Assembly (NCBI GenBank): GCA_021779535.1
Contig: JAJYAM010000005.1
Coordinates: 1-64,000, forward strand
DNA length: 64,000 nucleotides
Direction: 5' to 3'
Origin: Pseudomonadota bacterium
GTDB lineage: Bacteria; Pseudomonadota; Gammaproteobacteria; Steroidobacterales; Steroidobacteraceae
Shown here: in pieces, positions 1,076 through 62,151 of the stretch
Position numbering within the stretch: position 1 is the first letter of the stretch
Layout of the letters: each line of letters starts with the position of its first letter
Translations under genes and position numbers: made by a program
The notes under the pieces: generated by a model
The model's input: the letters and a program-made list of their open reading frames with translations, nothing else
Database searches by the model: none
Told to the model about the DNA's origin: nothing

Positions 1076-2155
1076 ATGCGCACGGTCATCGAATTCCGGG
1101 TCGAGTACCTGCAGCGCCTCGATCCCGACGGCAACGCGGTCGGCGAGCTGCCGGCGTTCGCGCGGGATCCGGACGAAGTGCTGCGGATGTACCGCGCGAT
1201 GACGCTCGCGCGGGCGTTCGACGCGAAGGCGGTGAACCTGCAGCGCACCGGACAGCTCGGCACCTACGCGTCCTGCCTCGGTCACGAGGCGACGCACATC
1301 GGGATCGGCGCGGCGATGCGCGCCGAGGACGTGTTCGCGCCGGTGTACCGGGAGGTCGGCACGCAGCTGTGGCGCGGCGTCACGATGCGCGAGATCCTGC
1401 TGTACTGGGGCGGCGACGAGCGCGGCAACGACTTCTCCGGCCCCCGCGCGGACTTTCCGTGGTGCGTCCCGATCGCGACCCAGACGCTGCACGCGGCGGG
1501 CGCCGCGATGGCGTTCAAGATCCGGCGCGAGCCGCGTTGCGCGGTCGCGACCATCGGCGACGGCGGCACCTCGGAAGGGGCGTTCTACGAGGCCCTGAAC
1601 GTCGCGGGCGCGCGCGCGTTGCCGGTCGTGTTCGCCGTCGTGAACAACGGCTGGGCGATCTCGGTCCCGGTCGCCGCGCAGACGGCGGCCAGGACGCTCG
1701 CGCAGAAGGCGATCGCCGCCGGCATCCCCGGCCTGCAGGTCGACGGCAACGACGTGTTCGCGGTCCGGGAGGCGATGTCCGCGGCGCTCGAGCGCGCGCG
1801 CGGCGGCGGCGGTCCGACGCTCGTCGAGGCCCTGACCTACCGGCTGAGCGACCACACGACCGCGGACGACGCGAGCCGCTACCGCAGCGCGCGCGAGGTC
1901 GACGACGCGCGCGCGCTCGAGCCGCTGCTGCGCACCCGGCGCTTCCTCGAAAAGGCGGGTCGCTGGAACGCGGACCGCGAGCGCGAGCTCCTCGCGGAGT
2001 GCGCGCGGACGATCGACGCGGCCGTCGCGGACCACCTCGCGGCGCCGCGGCCGTCGACCGACGCGATGTTCGACCACTTGTTCGCGAATCTGCCCGAGCG
2101 GATCCGCGAGCAGCGCATCGCAGCACGCCGCCACGCCGGCACGGACGGGCACTGA
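1076..2155 (+). CDS. pdhA: 2-oxoacid (pyruvate-type) dehydrogenase E1 component, alpha subunit
   Basis: Thiamine-diphosphate-dependent decarboxylase alpha chain of an alpha2beta2 E1, the first step of oxidative decarboxylation of pyruvate or a branched-chain 2-oxoacid. The 359-residue length is normal. The ThDP/Mg motif runs from GDG (161-163) to NN (190-191), and the phosphorylation-loop-like YRLSDHTTADD block is at 255-265. The ATG at 1076 leaves a normal N terminus. The stop is one base before the start of the beta subunit, and E2 overlaps the beta gene, so the three form one operon. No lipoamide dehydrogenase (E3) gene is in the window. Substrate (pyruvate versus branched-chain) cannot be settled from sequence alone; the close spacing and E2 type resemble the Xanthomonas-type pdhABC set. 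Confidence 0.9.
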   Translation: MRTVIEFRVEYLQRLDPDGNAVGELPAFARDPDEVLRMYRAMTLARAFDAKAVNLQRTGQLGTYASCLGHEATHIGIGAAMRAEDVFAPVYREVGTQLWRGVTMREILLYWGGDERGNDFSGPRADFPWCVPIATQTLHAAGAAMAFKIRREPRCAVATIGDGGTSEGAFYEALNVAGARALPVVFAVVNNGWAISVPVAAQTAARTLAQKAIAAGIPGLQVDGNDVFAVREAMSAALERARGGGGPTLVEALTYRLSDHTTADDASRYRSAREVDDARALEPLLRTRRFLEKAGRWNADRERELLAECARTIDAAVADHLAAPRPSTDAMFDHLFANLPERIREQRIAARRHAGTDGH

Positions 2156-2156
2156 A

Positions 2157-3140
2157 TTGCCGAAAGTGACGATGGTCGAGGCCATCGCGATGGCGCATGG
2201 CTGGGAGATGCAGCACGATCCCGCGGTCGTCGTGATCGGCGAGGACGTCGGCGCGAACGGCGGCGTGTTCCGCGCGACCCAAGGGTTGCAGCAGCGCTTC
2301 GGCGCCGAGCGCGTGCAGGACACGCCGCTCGCCGAAGCGGCGATCGCCGGCATCGCGATCGGCATGGCCGCGCAGGGATTGAAGCCGATCGCGGAGATCC
2401 AGTTCATGGGTTTCCTGTATCCCGCGCTCGACCAGATCATCAACCACATGTCGCGGCTGCGTCACCGCACGCGCGGGCGCCTGACCTGCCCGATCGTGAT
2501 GCGGATGCCGCACGGCGGCGGGATCCACGCGCCCGAGCATCACTCCGAGAGCGTCGAGACCTTGTTGTGCCACGTCCCGGGGCTGCGCGTCGTGAGCCCC
2601 TCGTCGCCCGCGCGCGCCTACGGACTGCTGCTCGCGGCGATCCGGGATCCGGACCCGGTGATGTTCCTCGAGCCGACCCGGCTGTACCGCGCGTCGCGCC
2701 AGGAAGTCCCCGACGACGGCCGCGCGCTGCCGCTCGACCGGGCGTTCGTGCTGCGCGAAGGGGCCGACGTGACGATCGTCGCCTGGGGCGCGATGATCGC
2801 CGAGACCCTGCAGGCCTCGGCCGAGCTCGCCGACACCGGCGTCGACGCCGAGGTGATCGACCTGGCGACCTTGAGTCCGATCGACGCGACGACGATCCTC
2901 GACTCGGTCGCGAAGACCGGACGCCTGGTGATCGTCCAGGAAGCGGCGCGCAACGTCGGCGTCGGCGCCGAGATCGCCGCGATCGCCGCCGAGGACGGCT
3001 TGTTCGACCTGCTCGCACCGATCCGCCGCGTCACCGGCTACGATACGGTGATGCCGCTCCACCGGCTCGAACGGGAGTACATTCCGAGCGTCCGCCGGAT
3101 CGTCGACGCGGTCCGCGGCACGATGGCCGACCCGCGATGA
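2157..3140 (+). CDS. pdhB: 2-oxoacid (pyruvate-type) dehydrogenase E1 component, beta subunit
   Basis: Beta chain of the heterotetrameric E1; with the alpha chain it builds the ThDP site. The 327 residues show the family blocks GEDVGANGGVFRAT near the N terminus, PLAEAAIAGIAIGMA, and MRMPHGGGIHAPEHHSES, followed by the transketolase C-terminal domain. The TTG at 2157 is chosen because it gives the usual N terminus (x-KVTMVEAI); GTG 2166 or ATG 2172 would remove the first strand. The TTG start one base after the alpha stop and the ATGA overlap with E2 at 3137-3140 suggest translational coupling and fixed subunit ratio. Confidence 0.88.
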   Translation: MPKVTMVEAIAMAHGWEMQHDPAVVVIGEDVGANGGVFRATQGLQQRFGAERVQDTPLAEAAIAGIAIGMAAQGLKPIAEIQFMGFLYPALDQIINHMSRLRHRTRGRLTCPIVMRMPHGGGIHAPEHHSESVETLLCHVPGLRVVSPSSPARAYGLLLAAIRDPDPVMFLEPTRLYRASRQEVPDDGRALPLDRAFVLREGADVTIVAWGAMIAETLQASAELADTGVDAEVIDLATLSPIDATTILDSVAKTGRLVIVQEAARNVGVGAEIAAIAAEDGLFDLLAPIRRVTGYDTVMPLHRLEREYIPSVRRIVDAVRGTMADPR

Positions 3141-53176: not shown

Positions 53177-54715
53177 TCATCCGCCGGTACCGTTCGCGGC
53201 GACCGGGGATTCGCCGAGCTCGGCGATCGCGGCGGTCAGCGCGCCGGTGTCCACCGGCTTGCCCAGGAACCGGCAGGAGGGGATCGGCGCCTTGACGACC
53301 CGGAGCAGCGAGTCGAGATCGCCGCTCAGCAGGATCGCGGGCATCTCCCAGCCGAGCATTTCGCGCAAGCGGCGCAACAAATCGATCCCGGTCATTTCGG
53401 TGCCGAGCCGGTAATCGGCGAGCAGCAGGTCGCCCGCGCGCAGCTGCGGCGCGAGCGCGAGCGCTTCGCCGGGAGAGGCGGCGCACATCACCGAATAGCC
53501 CGCGACCGTCAAGTACAGCTCGGTCGCCGCCCGTACCGACGCATTGTCCTCGACCAGCACCAGGCGGCCGGGCGCGGCGAACCCGGCGATCGGCGCGGCG
53601 GCGGCGTTCGGGTGGTCCGAGCGCAGCGCCTGGCGCGGTATCCGCACCGCGACGCGCGTCCCCTCGCCGACGGTCGAACGCACGGTCACCGGATAGCCGA
53701 GGATCCGGGACACCTCTCGGACGATCGCGAGCCCGAGCCCGACGCCGAGGCGCGGTGCTCCCGCCCGATCGACCTGATAGTACTCGTCGAAGATGCGCTC
53801 GAGCTTGTCGGCCGGGATTCCGATCCCGGTGTCCTCGACGCCGATCTCGAGGTACTCCGGATCGAGCCGCGCCGTGACCCGGACGACGCCCCGCTCGGTG
53901 TATTTCAGCGCGTTGCCGATCAGGTTCTGCAACAACTGGGTGAACAGCAGCCGGTCCGTCGCCAGCATCGCACCCGGCTCGGCGACCTCGAGCCGCAGTC
54001 CCCTCGCGGTCGCGACGGAATCGAATTCGCGCCGCAGGTCGGCGAACACCGAGGCGAGCGGCACGTCGTCGAGCTGCGGCTGGATCGCGCCCGACTCGAG
54101 ACGGCTCACGTCGAGGAGTCCGTCGAGGAGCCGGGTCGCGGCCTCGATCGCGAGTTCCTCGCGTTGCAACAGATCCTCGATGTCCGGACAACCGGACGCG
54201 AGCCGGCGCATCGCGGCGTTCAGCAGCCGGATCGTTTGCATCGGTTGGCGCAGATCGTGGCTCGCGGTCGCGAGGAACCGGCTCTTCGCCGAGTTCGCGC
54301 GCTCGGCCTCCGCGCGTGCGACGACCAGCGCGTCGCGAATCGCCCGGCGTTCGGTCGCATCGCGGATCGCGGCCGCGACGTACTGCTCGCCTTGCCATTC
54401 GAACGGCGCCAGACGGATCCCCGCCGGGAACTCCGAGCCGTCCGCCCGGCGCGCATACAGATCGGCGACCCGGCTGCCCATCTCCCGGCTGTGGGGGGAT
54501 CGGTGGAACTCGGCGAGGAGGGTCGCGTGGCGCGCGCGGAACCGTTCCGGCAACAGCACGTCGAGCGGTTGCCCGATCAAGCCGTCGGGTGAATGGCCGA
54601 ACACCACGCGCACCGTCTCGTTCGCGAATCGGATCAGTCCGCGCGCATCCACGGCGACCAGCGCATCCGGGCTGAAATGCAACAGCTGTTGTGACAGCGC
54701 GGCTACGTCACTCAT
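53177..54715 (-). CDS. Cytoplasmic PAS-containing hybrid histidine kinase
   Basis: 512 residues: PAS domain (about 8-125; LLHFSPDALVAVDARGLIRF), H-box FLATASHDLRQPMQTI, N-box LQNLIGNALKYT, G1 DTGIGI, G2 GVGLGLAIV, then a receiver domain (about 390-505) with acceptor Asp in LLLADYRL and the conserved Lys in FLGKPVD. No membrane helix, so it senses an internal signal. Paralogue of the kinase at 37-39 kb. ATG 54715; weak ribosome binding site. Divergent from the sensor-less kinase/FixJ-like pair across 280 bases, with which it could form a phosphorelay. Confidence 0.87.
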   Translation of the reverse strand: MSDVAALSQQLLHFSPDALVAVDARGLIRFANETVRVVFGHSPDGLIGQPLDVLLPERFRARHATLLAEFHRSPHSREMGSRVADLYARRADGSEFPAGIRLAPFEWQGEQYVAAAIRDATERRAIRDALVVARAEAERANSAKSRFLATASHDLRQPMQTIRLLNAAMRRLASGCPDIEDLLQREELAIEAATRLLDGLLDVSRLESGAIQPQLDDVPLASVFADLRREFDSVATARGLRLEVAEPGAMLATDRLLFTQLLQNLIGNALKYTERGVVRVTARLDPEYLEIGVEDTGIGIPADKLERIFDEYYQVDRAGAPRLGVGLGLAIVREVSRILGYPVTVRSTVGEGTRVAVRIPRQALRSDHPNAAAAPIAGFAAPGRLVLVEDNASVRAATELYLTVAGYSVMCAASPGEALALAPQLRAGDLLLADYRLGTEMTGIDLLRRLREMLGWEMPAILLSGDLDSLLRVVKAPIPSCRFLGKPVDTGALTAAIAELGESPVAANGTGG

Positions 54716-54995
54716 GGGCTCATCGCGTCCGCTGCACGGCCGCCGGGCTTGGGCCCGGATTTCTGGGCCATGCGGGCAGTCTACCCGATCTGCCGCCCGC
54801 CCGGGGCTCCTAAGGGCGAGGCGCAGCCGGATGCGGGGAAGCCGCGACTGCGTCTTGCCGGGGTTTTCGGCACTCTGGGATCCGGTGGTTGGCTGAAAGT
54901 GAACGCTAGAATCGATCCGAGGGGTGCGGGCGCCGAAATGCCCGGACCTCCAGACTTGCATTGGTCGGCCGCATGGGCCGGCACAGGGTGGAGCG

Positions 54996-55748
54996 ATGAA
55001 CCATAAATCGGCCGCGGCGGAGCCGGGCGCGATCCTCAATCAGTTGATGGAGATCGCGAGGATCTCGGCGCTCGCCGAAATGGCGAGCGGGATCGCGCAT
55101 GAGCTCAATCAGCCGCTCGGGGCGATCGCGACCTTTGCGCAGGCCGGCGAGCGGATGCTGAACCGCCCCGACCCGCTGCTGGCGCCCGCGCTCGACGTGT
55201 TCCGGCAGATCAGCCAGGAAGCGCTCGGTGCCGGCGAAGGAATCCGGCGGATCCGCAGCCTCTTCGAGTACGAGCCGACCACGCGCGAGACCTGCCGGAT
55301 GCCGGACGTGATCGAGGAATTGCGGCCGGTGCTCGAGATGCTCGCGCTGCGCGCGCACGGCGCGCTCGAGATCACCGCGACCCAAGCCGGCCTGCCCGAA
55401 GTGCCGATCGACCGCCTGAAGGTTCAGCACGTGCTGTTCGCGCTGGTTCAGAACGCGTTCGATGCGTCGGTCGAACGGGCCGCCGAGGCGCAGCCGCGGG
55501 TGCGGATCGCGGTGAGCGGCGACCGCTACGCGGTCGAGACCAGCGTGTTCGACAGCGGCGCCGGCATCACCCCGCAGATCCGGGAACAGCTGTTCCGCCC
55601 GTTCTTCACGACCAAGGCGCGCGGCACGGGCCTCGGTCTCGCGTCGAGCCGCGCGATCATCGAGGCGCACGAAGGTACGATAGGATTCGAGCTGCAGCCG
55701 CAGAGCGGGAGCCGGTTCTGGTTCCGCCTGCCGGCCGCGGCCAACTGA
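54996..55748 (+). CDS. FixL/NtrB-like histidine kinase without a sensor domain
   Basis: 250 residues made only of the catalytic core: H-box SGIAHELNQPLGAI (H35), N-box FALVQNAFDAS, G1 VFDSGAGI, and the FFTTKARGTGLGLASSRAII block. Only ~28 residues precede the H-box, so there is no PAS, GAF or membrane sensor. It must be activated by a partner protein. ATG 54996 has GGTGGAG upstream. Twelve bases before the FixJ-like regulator, clearly one operon. A closely similar but decayed copy lies at 61.4 kb. The 280-base leader region contains a CCGGGC-TTG-GGCCCGG hairpin and a TTGGCT...TAGAAT pair with too short a spacer to call a promoter. Confidence 0.87.
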   Translation: MNHKSAAAEPGAILNQLMEIARISALAEMASGIAHELNQPLGAIATFAQAGERMLNRPDPLLAPALDVFRQISQEALGAGEGIRRIRSLFEYEPTTRETCRMPDVIEELRPVLEMLALRAHGALEITATQAGLPEVPIDRLKVQHVLFALVQNAFDASVERAAEAQPRVRIAVSGDRYAVETSVFDSGAGITPQIREQLFRPFFTTKARGTGLGLASSRAIIEAHEGTIGFELQPQSGSRFWFRLPAAAN

Positions 55749-55760
55749 CAAGGAGTCGGG

Positions 55761-56390
55761 ATGACGAAACCCAGCGAGCCGCACAACGCGAAGGGCACGA
55801 TCTACGTGGTCGACGACGACGACGGCATGCGGCGCGCGCTGACGCTGCTGCTCGGCACGGTCGGCTTCGACACGCGCGCCTACGCCCGCCCGAGCGAGTT
55901 CCTCGCGAACCTGAAACCCGATGAACCCGGCTGTCTCGTGCTCGACATCCGCATGCCCGAGATGAGCGGTTTGGAGCTGCAGCAGCAGCTGAACCAGACC
56001 GGCTGCATGCTGCCGGTGATCTTCATCACCGGCCACGGGGACGTGCCGATGGCGGTGCAGGCGATGAAGGCCGGCGCGTTCGAGTTCATCCAGAAGCCGT
56101 TCCGCGAACAGGACCTGCTCGACAAGGTCAACCACGCGTTGCGCCACGACGCGGAGAACCGGCAGGACCTCGCGCGCCGCGCGGAGGTGCTCAAGCGCCT
56201 GGAGACCCTGACGCCGCGGGAGCGTCAGGTCATGGATCTGGTGGTCGAGGGCGGCGCGAACAAGGTGATCGCGATCGACCTCGGATTGAGCGAGCGAACG
56301 GTCGAGATCCACCGCGCGAAGGTCATGGAGAAGATGGGCGCGCGTTCGGTCGCGCACCTGGTCAAGCTCCACATGATGATCGCCGAGTGA
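55761..56390 (+). CDS. FixJ/NarL-type response regulator
   Basis: 209 residues: receiver domain (1-~125; VVDDDDGMRRAL, acceptor Asp in VLDIRMPEMSG, ITGHGDVPMAVQAMKAGA, Lys in FIQKPF) and LuxR-type HTH (LTPRERQVMDLVVEGGANKV, then LSERTVEIHRAKVMEKMG). This is the FixJ subfamily pattern. Ribosome binding site AAGGAG six bases before ATG 55761. Cognate of the upstream sensor-less kinase. Family members control micro-oxic or dicarboxylate genes; the hemN gene and CcoQ-like microprotein just downstream make oxygen response plausible, but no FixK/FNR-type box was seen. Confidence 0.9.
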   Translation: MTKPSEPHNAKGTIYVVDDDDGMRRALTLLLGTVGFDTRAYARPSEFLANLKPDEPGCLVLDIRMPEMSGLELQQQLNQTGCMLPVIFITGHGDVPMAVQAMKAGAFEFIQKPFREQDLLDKVNHALRHDAENRQDLARRAEVLKRLETLTPRERQVMDLVVEGGANKVIAIDLGLSERTVEIHRAKVMEKMGARSVAHLVKLHMMIAE

Positions 56391-59787: not shown

Positions 59788-61353
59788 ATGCGGGCGAACA
59801 GCGGCACCGATACCGCCGGCGAACCGCCGCCCTCGTGGCGGGTCGCGCAATTGCTCGATCCGGCCGCGTACGCGCATCCGGTCGCGGCACCGCGGGTGAT
59901 CGAGACCCACATCTCGCTGGTCGTGCTGACCGGTGAGTTCGCGTACAAGATCAAGAAACCGGTGCGGCTCGAGTTCCTCGACGCGAGCACGCTCGAGCGA
60001 CGGCATTTCCTCTGCGAGGAGGAGCGGCGCTTGAACGCCCGCCTCGCTCCCGAACTCTACCTGGAGGTCGTGCCGATCGTGCGCGCGGCGCAGGGGCTGC
60101 GTGTCGGCGGCACCGGCATCGCGGTCGAGTACGCGGTGAAGATGCGCCAGTTCGACGGAACCCAGGAGCTCGGTGCATTGCTCGAGCGTGACGCGGTCGA
60201 CGCCGCCGAGATCGCCGGCCTCGGCCGCCGCGTCGCACGCTTTCATGCGAACGCGCCGGTCGATCTCGGCCGTCCGGACGGGTTGAACACCGAGAGGATG
60301 CGGGCCGCGGTCCTCGGCAATCTCGCGACGCTCCTCGCCCACGTCGGCGAGGCGGGAACCGCGCCCGAGCTCGGCCGGCTGATCGACTGGACGCACGACC
60401 GGCTCGAACGCGATGCGCAGCGCTTCCAGGACCGCGAGGCGGCCGGGTTCGTGCGCGAGTGCCACGGCGACCTGCACGCGCGCAACATCGTGCGTTGGGC
60501 GGGCGGCCTGGTTCCGTTCGACTGCCTGGAATTCGACCCGGCGCTGCGCTGGATCGACGTGATGAGCGACGCCGCGTTCCTGGTGATGGACCTCGTCGGA
60601 CGCTCGCGTGGCGACCTCGCGGCGGTTTTCCTCGACGCCTACCTCGGCGAGTCCGGCGACTACGCCGGCGTCGCATCGCTGCCGTTCTACGCGGTGTATC
60701 GCGCGCTGGTCCGCGCGATGGTCGATACGCTCGCCGCCGAGACCCAGGCCGGCGGACGCCGGTCGTTCACCGACCGCGCGCGCGCGCGGATCCGAACCGC
60801 CGCCGGCTTCGCCACGCCGCGGCCGGCGGTGCTCGTCGCGATGCACGGACCGTCGGGATCCGGGAAGTCCTGGCTGAGCGAACGGCTCGTCGCGACGCTC
60901 GGCGCGGTTCGAATCCGCTCCGACGTCGAACGCAAGCGGCTCGCCGGCGGATCGTCCGCCGCCCACGATCCGCGCGCGGACGCGCTCACCTACGAACGGC
61001 TGATCGCGTGCGCCGGCGCCTGCCTGGCGGGCGGGGTGCCGGCGATCGTCGATGCGGCCAGCTTGCGCCGTGTCGATCGGGACCGCTACCGCGCGCTCGC
61101 CGCCGCGGCCCGGGTGCCGTTGGTCATCCTGTCCTGCCGGGCCGACCGGCCGGTGTTGATGGAGCGGATCGCCGCCCGCCGGCGCCGCGGCACCGATCCG
61201 TCGGACGCGGATCTCGACGTGCTGGGCGCGCAGCTCGCGACGCTGGAGCCGTTCGGCGACGACGAGCGCGCCGGCGTGGTCGAAGTCGCGACCACGGATC
61301 CCGGCGCCCTCGAGCGCTCGGCGGAGGCGATCGCCCGGATCCGCTCTAGGTAG
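59788..61353 (+). CDS. Fusion of APH-like kinase and P-loop ATPase (COG2187-COG0645)
   Basis: 521 residues. The N-terminal ~340 have an aminoglycoside-phosphotransferase-like fold (CHGDLHARNIV catalytic loop; FDCLEFDPALRWIDVMSDAA metal site). The C-terminal ~170 are a zeta-toxin/gluconate-kinase-like P-loop domain (Walker A GPSGSGKSWLS, then RIRSDVERKRLAG). This two-domain protein is widespread in proteobacteria, often near universal-stress and low-oxygen genes, with no known substrate. ATG 59788 has GGAGGA nine bases upstream. Followed by the decayed kinase gene (45 bases). Confidence 0.87.
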   Translation: MRANSGTDTAGEPPPSWRVAQLLDPAAYAHPVAAPRVIETHISLVVLTGEFAYKIKKPVRLEFLDASTLERRHFLCEEERRLNARLAPELYLEVVPIVRAAQGLRVGGTGIAVEYAVKMRQFDGTQELGALLERDAVDAAEIAGLGRRVARFHANAPVDLGRPDGLNTERMRAAVLGNLATLLAHVGEAGTAPELGRLIDWTHDRLERDAQRFQDREAAGFVRECHGDLHARNIVRWAGGLVPFDCLEFDPALRWIDVMSDAAFLVMDLVGRSRGDLAAVFLDAYLGESGDYAGVASLPFYAVYRALVRAMVDTLAAETQAGGRRSFTDRARARIRTAAGFATPRPAVLVAMHGPSGSGKSWLSERLVATLGAVRIRSDVERKRLAGGSSAAHDPRADALTYERLIACAGACLAGGVPAIVDAASLRRVDRDRYRALAAAARVPLVILSCRADRPVLMERIAARRRRGTDPSDADLDVLGAQLATLEPFGDDERAGVVEVATTDPGALERSAEAIARIRSR

Positions 61354-61398
61354 AATCCACTGCTGCGGGACGCCGGGCGCCGCGCGACGATTTCAACC

Positions 61399-62151
61399 AT
61401 GAAACGAGAGCGCGCCGCACGGGATCTGGCCGCCGCCGGAACGGCGCGCGCGGGTCACCCGGTCGCGGAAGTCGCGCGCAGCGTGGAGCTCGAGGAACTC
61501 GCGGCGTGGCTCGCGCACCACGTGAACCAGCCGCTCGGCGCGGTGGCCGCGTTCGCGCAGGCCGGCTGCCGGATGCTCTCCGGTGCGAGCCCGCCGGTCG
61601 AGCAGGCGGCCGCGATATTTCGCGAGATCGCCCGCCTCGCGCTCGAGGCGGGCGCGGACGTCGGCCGGATTCGCGCCCGCTACACGGCCGAGGTCGTGCC
61701 GGCGAGGCGCCACCGGATCGAGGAGTTGATCGAGGCGATCGACACGCCATTGCGCGGGATCGCGGCCGGATACCACGGGCGCCTCGAGATCGACGTCGGA
61801 CCCGGCCTCCCCGAGATTCGCGTCGACGCACCCCGCATTCAATACGTGGTGATGAGCCTGGTGCGCAGCGGCTTCGCGGCCGCCGATCCTCGCGGCGGCA
61901 CGCCGCACGTGCGCGTGGAATCCCGCGCGGAGGCCGGCGGCGTGCTCACGAGCGTGATCGACGACGGCACGCATCCCCCGGTGGCGGATCAAGACGCGTT
62001 CGAGCCGTCGCTCGCGGCCCCGGCGCCCGCGTTCGGCCTGAGCCTCGCGGCGAGCCGCTCGATCATCGAGGCGCATCGCGGGACGATCGGCTTCGAGAAG
62101 CTGCGCGCGGGCGGCCGGACCTGGTTCCGGTTGCCGGCCGCGGACGCGTAG
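61399..62151 (+). CDS. Decayed paralogue of the sensor-less histidine kinase (pseudokinase)
   Basis: 250 residues, the same length and layout as the kinase at 54996-55748, and clearly related (HVNQPLGAVAAFAQAG, SIIEAHRGTIGFE). Catalytic features are lost in place: the H-box His is kept (H40) but the next Glu is His; the N-box reads RSGFAAAD with no Asn; the G1 box DSGAGI reads DDGTHP; the G2 glycines GTGLGL read AFGLSL. It cannot bind ATP normally. The reading frame is intact and uses normal codons, so it is more likely a selected non-catalytic adaptor than a fresh pseudogene. Confidence 0.8.
   Translation: MKRERAARDLAAAGTARAGHPVAEVARSVELEELAAWLAHHVNQPLGAVAAFAQAGCRMLSGASPPVEQAAAIFREIARLALEAGADVGRIRARYTAEVVPARRHRIEELIEAIDTPLRGIAAGYHGRLEIDVGPGLPEIRVDAPRIQYVVMSLVRSGFAAADPRGGTPHVRVESRAEAGGVLTSVIDDGTHPPVADQDAFEPSLAAPAPAFGLSLAASRSIIEAHRGTIGFEKLRAGGRTWFRLPAADA

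Follow-up and report, generated by a model that had tools for sequence, protein, structure and literature searches.

Studies of natural histidine pseudokinases are few, and the examples cited below are sensor proteins of larger size; DivL lacks the phospho-acceptor His as well. The ChrS pseudokinase of Corynebacterium glutamicum is a sensor kinase that arose by a frameshift in laboratory evolution, and heterodimers of ChrS and HrrS have been proposed, with the DHp domain being needed (PMC9491836). ChpT, Spo0B and PhyT are thought to derive from histidine kinases (PMC3433190, PMC5898713). Kinases of the HisKA type need the acidic residue at +1, beside the phospho-acceptor His, for the kinase reaction and not for the phosphatase reaction, while the reverse holds for the residue at +4 (PMC3510030). 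The window analyzed here, a stretch of 64,000 nucleotides, comes from a genome of the family Steroidobacteraceae, Gammaproteobacteria (G000 in a genus sample of 23 genomes), and carries on its forward strand a gene (61399-62151) for a protein of 250 amino acids, composed of a DHp hairpin and a degenerate HATPase_c domain. Judged by its sequence and those of its relatives, this protein is a histidine pseudokinase that arose locally and has been maintained by selection.

The reading frame is intact from ATG to TAG. An open frame alone is little proof in DNA with a GC content of 70.8%, in which the antisense strand has long ORFs too; we take this one to be no chance ORF because its HATPase_c domain scores above the Pfam cut-off (31.0 bits, cut-off 26.4), orthologues are present in other species, and omega is about 0.2. 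The HisKA match is weak (13.9 bits, under the cut-off of 26.9). A Pfam scan to E=1 returned these two domains only, with no sequence family of the ChpT, Spo0B or PhyT type and no PAS domain in the 250 residues, and the NCBIfam FixL model (cut-off 850 bits) scored 64 bits, aligned over the kinase part only. An intact, sensor-less, FixL-like kinase is encoded on the same strand at 54996-55748 and is the proposed parent and partner of the pseudokinase; it scores 78.7 bits for HATPase_c and 26.8 bits for HisKA. The two proteins are 41% identical over 234 aligned residues (E=3e-50), bearing out the paralogy proposed in an earlier, sequence-only reading of this DNA, and the similar motifs which that reading quoted, HVNQPLGAVAAFAQAG and IIEAHRGTIGFE, are found in the protein.

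Comparison with the paralogue locates the losses. In the H-box and helix alpha1 (residues 39-60, 61513-61578), AHELNQPL of the paralogue reads AHHVNQPL in the pseudokinase; the phospho-acceptor His40 (codon 61516-61518) is retained, as had been claimed, together with Gln44, and the catalytic Glu41 is gone. In the N-box region (residues 148-163, 61840-61887), LVQNAFDAS is changed to LVRSGFAAA, with Ser157 in place of the Asn. The region of the G1 box, F-box, ATP lid and G2 box (residues 183-217, 61945-62049) is degenerate throughout: DSGAG has become DDGTH, with the Asp and first Gly retained; FRPFFTTK has become FEPSLAAP, with loss of the Lys; and GTGLGLA has become AFGLSLA, where the middle Gly alone is retained and the third is lost. 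The earlier reading was right that the N-box Asn is replaced; its statement that the G1 and G2 glycines are all replaced goes too far, since one survives in each box. The loss of the acidic residue beside the His (HE to HH) and of the F-box with its Lys had gone unremarked. The surviving Asp188, Gly190 and Gly213, along with a HATPase_c score above the cut-off, would be expected if the protein had kept weak kinase activity or some nucleotide binding. We consider this highly improbable, as the N-box Asn, the F-box Lys and Glu41 are all gone and the three remaining residues are not conserved in orthologues (SLSLS in G006; the Asp missing in G002).

An AlphaFold2 model of the pseudokinase (mean pLDDT 77.4, pTM 0.69) shows the DHp domain as a long hairpin, together with a domain of the Bergerat type. 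The ATP lid (residues 196-212) is modeled with low confidence, residues 196-199 and 201-212 having pLDDT <50, and is without a helix at the position where ChpT has an extended one. Among solved structures, chimeric kinases of the FixL type come closest (Z about 22). The VIA-align matches listed comprise FixL-type kinases, CckA, DivL and RetS; ChpT and Spo0B are not among the matches listed, which excludes nothing.

The genes around the pseudokinase offer it several possible partners. Immediately downstream of the active kinase lies a FixJ-like response regulator (55761-56390, forward strand; NCBIfam FixJ 249.7 bits, cut-off 255), the proposed target, and divergent from that kinase is a PAS-HisKA-HATPase_c-REC hybrid kinase of the NahK/ErcS type (53177-54715, reverse strand). 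The module of hybrid kinase, FixL-like kinase and FixJ-like regulator (53177-56390) is conserved throughout the genus, and further genera of the family have it as well. Directly upstream of the pseudokinase is an AAA_33-type gene (59788-61353, forward strand), which served as a synteny marker. In G000, G006 and G019, the pseudokinase is syntenic with the kinase, the regulator, hemN, glpK and the AAA_33 gene, and in the three loci whose assembly is unbroken, no more than about 6 kb separates it from the local kinase. A search of a plasmid collection returned FixL-like kinases only, all at <60% identity. The FNR/FixK-type box TTGAYN4RTCAA occurs three times in the window against 1.2 expected, which is no excess, and not at all upstream of the pseudokinase.

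With a receiver-bearing hybrid kinase encoded beside the active kinase as a possible donor, the pseudokinase might be a phosphotransferase in the manner of ChpT, Spo0B or PhyT, carrying phosphate from a receiver domain, such as that of the hybrid kinase, through His40 to the FixJ-like regulator. A soluble DHp domain that keeps its His next to a degenerate CA domain has the required layout, and kinases have turned into phosphotransferases in this way (PMC3433190, PMC5898713). However, the hybrid kinase, active kinase and regulator co-occur in relatives without the pseudokinase, the regulator has its own intact kinase adjoining it, and the acidic +1 residue is gone, so we regard such a relay as unlikely.

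Orthologues of the pseudokinase occupy the same place, downstream of the AAA_33 gene, in five other species of the genus. Their identities to the window protein are 79% (G006), 74% (G019), 45-47% (G005) and 39% (G002), and that of G022, of which only the 5′ half is present at a contig end, is about 79%. The recurrence of the gene at one place in independent MAGs rules against an artefact of a single assembly. The remaining AAA_33 loci retrieved from the genus hold no trace of the pseudokinase. We also rejected an apparent fusion in G009 (C168, about 2047-3069), where an MreC-like protein runs in frame into the last 45 residues of a pseudokinase. That contig is probably chimeric or foreign: it matches the window with 95% identity in the pseudokinase tail and 89% in the P-type ATPase, whereas the kinase of G009 itself is just 74% identical, and the join falls within a CCGGCGCCCGCG repeat.

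In a rooted tree, the pseudokinases form a single clade (100/100) inside the radiation of FixL-like kinases of the genus, which as a whole is set apart from other kinases (100/100). All carriers fall in a kinase clade of eight species; a duplication at its base is not rejected (p-AU 0.46), and neither is a placement of the pseudokinases outside all active kinases (p-AU likewise 0.46). All five full-length copies lack the Gln-Asn of the N-box, the F-box Lys and the third Gly of G2, and share Ser215 (G->S), while Glu41 is lost in four; in 12 columns the pseudokinases are fixed for a residue differing from the active consensus. Because the N-box, F-box and G2 losses are shared by every full-length copy, inactivation of the ATP site most simply appears to predate the split of the species. 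Since then, the pseudokinases have diverged to as little as 39% identity with their frames intact.

Two elements upstream of the gene are also shared between species. CTAGGTAGAAT (61346-61356, forward strand) resembles a promoter -10 element and overlaps the stop codon of the AAA_33 gene; it is identical in G000, G006, G019, G022 and G013, and reads CTAGGTAGAAc in G002. Its role as a -10 element is inferred. The 10-mer CTAGGTAGAA is found at one site only elsewhere in the genome (G000:C108:120213); there, too, it overlaps the stop codon of one gene shortly ahead of the start of the next, and we take the two genes to be recG (upstream) and ubiC (downstream). Just before the start codon of the pseudokinase, the leader 12-mer GCGCGACGATTT (61382-61393, forward strand) is placed alike in G006 and G019, and also in G005, a distant orthologue that shares 17 identical bases in all. 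We rejected it as a specific regulatory site, as each genome has a few further copies. No clear Shine-Dalgarno sequence is seen ahead of the start.

In G013 (C233, minus strand, about 1479 to 1197), hardly anything separates the promoter-like element and leader from the last ~70 codons, a deletion having removed the DHp domain and one half of the CA domain. This remnant shows that the pseudokinase is dispensable in the G013 lineage. Such a remnant is what one would see if the gene were a functionless, decaying duplicate whose frame is not yet lost elsewhere. Selection was measured by pairwise codon maximum likelihood using our own script (GY94-type, F3x4), and because of saturation no use was made of pairs that include G005 or G002. 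The pseudokinase pairs among G000, G006 and G019 gave omega values of 0.195, 0.185 and 0.200 (2dlnL 49-58 versus omega = 1). For the same species, the active kinase gave 0.04-0.08 and the AAA_33 neighbor 0.10-0.16, so that the pseudokinase evolves at 2-4 times the omega of the active kinase, and its G1-F-G2 segment (29 codons) has an omega of 0.27-0.94, not clearly different from 1. In the frame controls, the sense frame was free of stops and had the lowest or joint lowest omega; the wobble-aligned antisense frame mirrored the low omega but contained stop codons, and was rejected as a gene. The faster evolution and the relaxed nucleotide-site segment speak for decay, as does the G013 remnant. 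Against it stand the low omega following ancestral inactivation, the intact frames down to 39% identity, and the conservation of helix alpha1 and the promoter-like element; we rejected a neutral pseudogene on the omega values and frame controls, and hold decay to be quite improbable.

Helix alpha1 around His40 is the best conserved part of the protein, and significantly so: 14 of its 22 columns are invariant in the five orthologues compared to 47 of 228 elsewhere (Fisher p=4.6e-5). His40 itself is kept in all five sequences, although its retention alone is not significant. The dN/dS comparison across relatives that the sequence-only reading had called for was run, and with values of 0.18-0.20 rather than near 1, reached after inactivation, and with alpha1 as the most conserved part, its proposal of selection for a non-kinase role gains support.

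What alpha1 might contact can be considered by analogy with the specificity positions of HK853, taken from its verified sequence and its named rewiring mutants; alpha2 was left out, as the alignment is uncertain there. At H+8 and H+15 the pseudokinase is the same as the active kinase. At H+11 every pseudokinase has Ala, where active kinases mostly have Thr. An interface re-tuned away from the local pair toward another regulator or kinase elsewhere in the genome, which has 31 receiver-domain matches, would be in keeping with the 12 pseudokinase-fixed columns, including the Thr to Ala change at H+11, a position used in rewiring HK853. Yet alpha1 is otherwise nearly identical to that of the local kinase, Ala at H+11 is also present in some active kinases, and the three fully assembled loci keep the gene near that kinase. 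A distant target seems to us rather improbable.

Most likely, the pseudokinase would act through its DHp domain on the neighboring FixL-like kinase and FixJ-like regulator; phosphatase, heterodimer, decoy and ChpT-like phosphotransfer modes would look alike in the sequence. We propose, with belief and doubt about evenly balanced, that the soluble FixL-like kinase was duplicated, that the ATP site of the copy was lost in the shared ancestor of a clade within the genus, and that the copy was then retained for its DHp domain. Through alpha1 and the four-helix bundle, the protein may dock on the FixJ-like regulator, heterodimerize with the active kinase, or both, and would thereby alter the level of phosphorylated regulator. 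The +1 residue is lost in four of the five pseudokinases, and all five retain Gln at +4, the residue that the active family has there. This pattern fits a kinase-minus protein that may still dock or pair better than it fits random decay, and is no proof of a phosphatase. Because the kinase-specific Glu is lost while the His and the +4 residue are retained, a negative modulator (a phosphatase, a phosphate sink or an inactive heterodimer) may fit somewhat better than an activator. It is possible, though doubtful, that the FixL/FixJ-like system has here evolved a dedicated kinase-minus partner, specialized by the ancestral loss of its ATP site and, in most of the species, of the kinase-specific Glu, that dephosphorylates the regulator or relays phosphate by way of the His and the +4 Gln; the phosphatases tested have Thr or Asn at +4, whereas the pseudokinase has Gln. 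That Gln, the G013 remnant and an omega faster than that of the active kinase count against the proposed duplication and DHp-mediated role.

Among known systems, the nearest in sequence is the FixL kinase domain itself. The pseudokinase shares with it, and with the paralogue at 54996-55748, the fold, the HxxNQPL H-box and the size of the kinase core, and its best NCBIfam and structure matches are FixL-type; unlike FixL, it is without a PAS/haem sensor, an ATP site and the catalytic Glu. Like ChrS beside HrrS, it is a (here predicted) kinase-dead paralogue of an intact kinase, but a natural, old, soluble and sensor-less one (PMC9491836). With ChpT, Spo0B and PhyT it has in common a His-bearing DHp domain and a CA domain that, in the pseudokinase, is predicted to be unable to use ATP, while those belong to different sequence families and the neighboring system here exists in relatives without the pseudokinase (PMC3433190, PMC5898713). 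RocA, the partner of CovS (PMC7028121), and DivL are likewise kinase-dead homologues that modulate another histidine kinase, but they are membrane-bound or sensor-bearing and their partners are unrelated. Placed among these, the pseudokinase and its orthologues are, from what their sequences indicate, a small new family of an already known kind, histidine pseudokinases, with an origin that is unusually legible. It is a minimal soluble pseudokinase beside the intact kinase proposed as its parent, and its sister species trace a path from duplication through ancestral loss of the ATP site and long maintenance to one secondary deletion. It would make a compact test case for the role of a kinase dimerization domain without catalysis.
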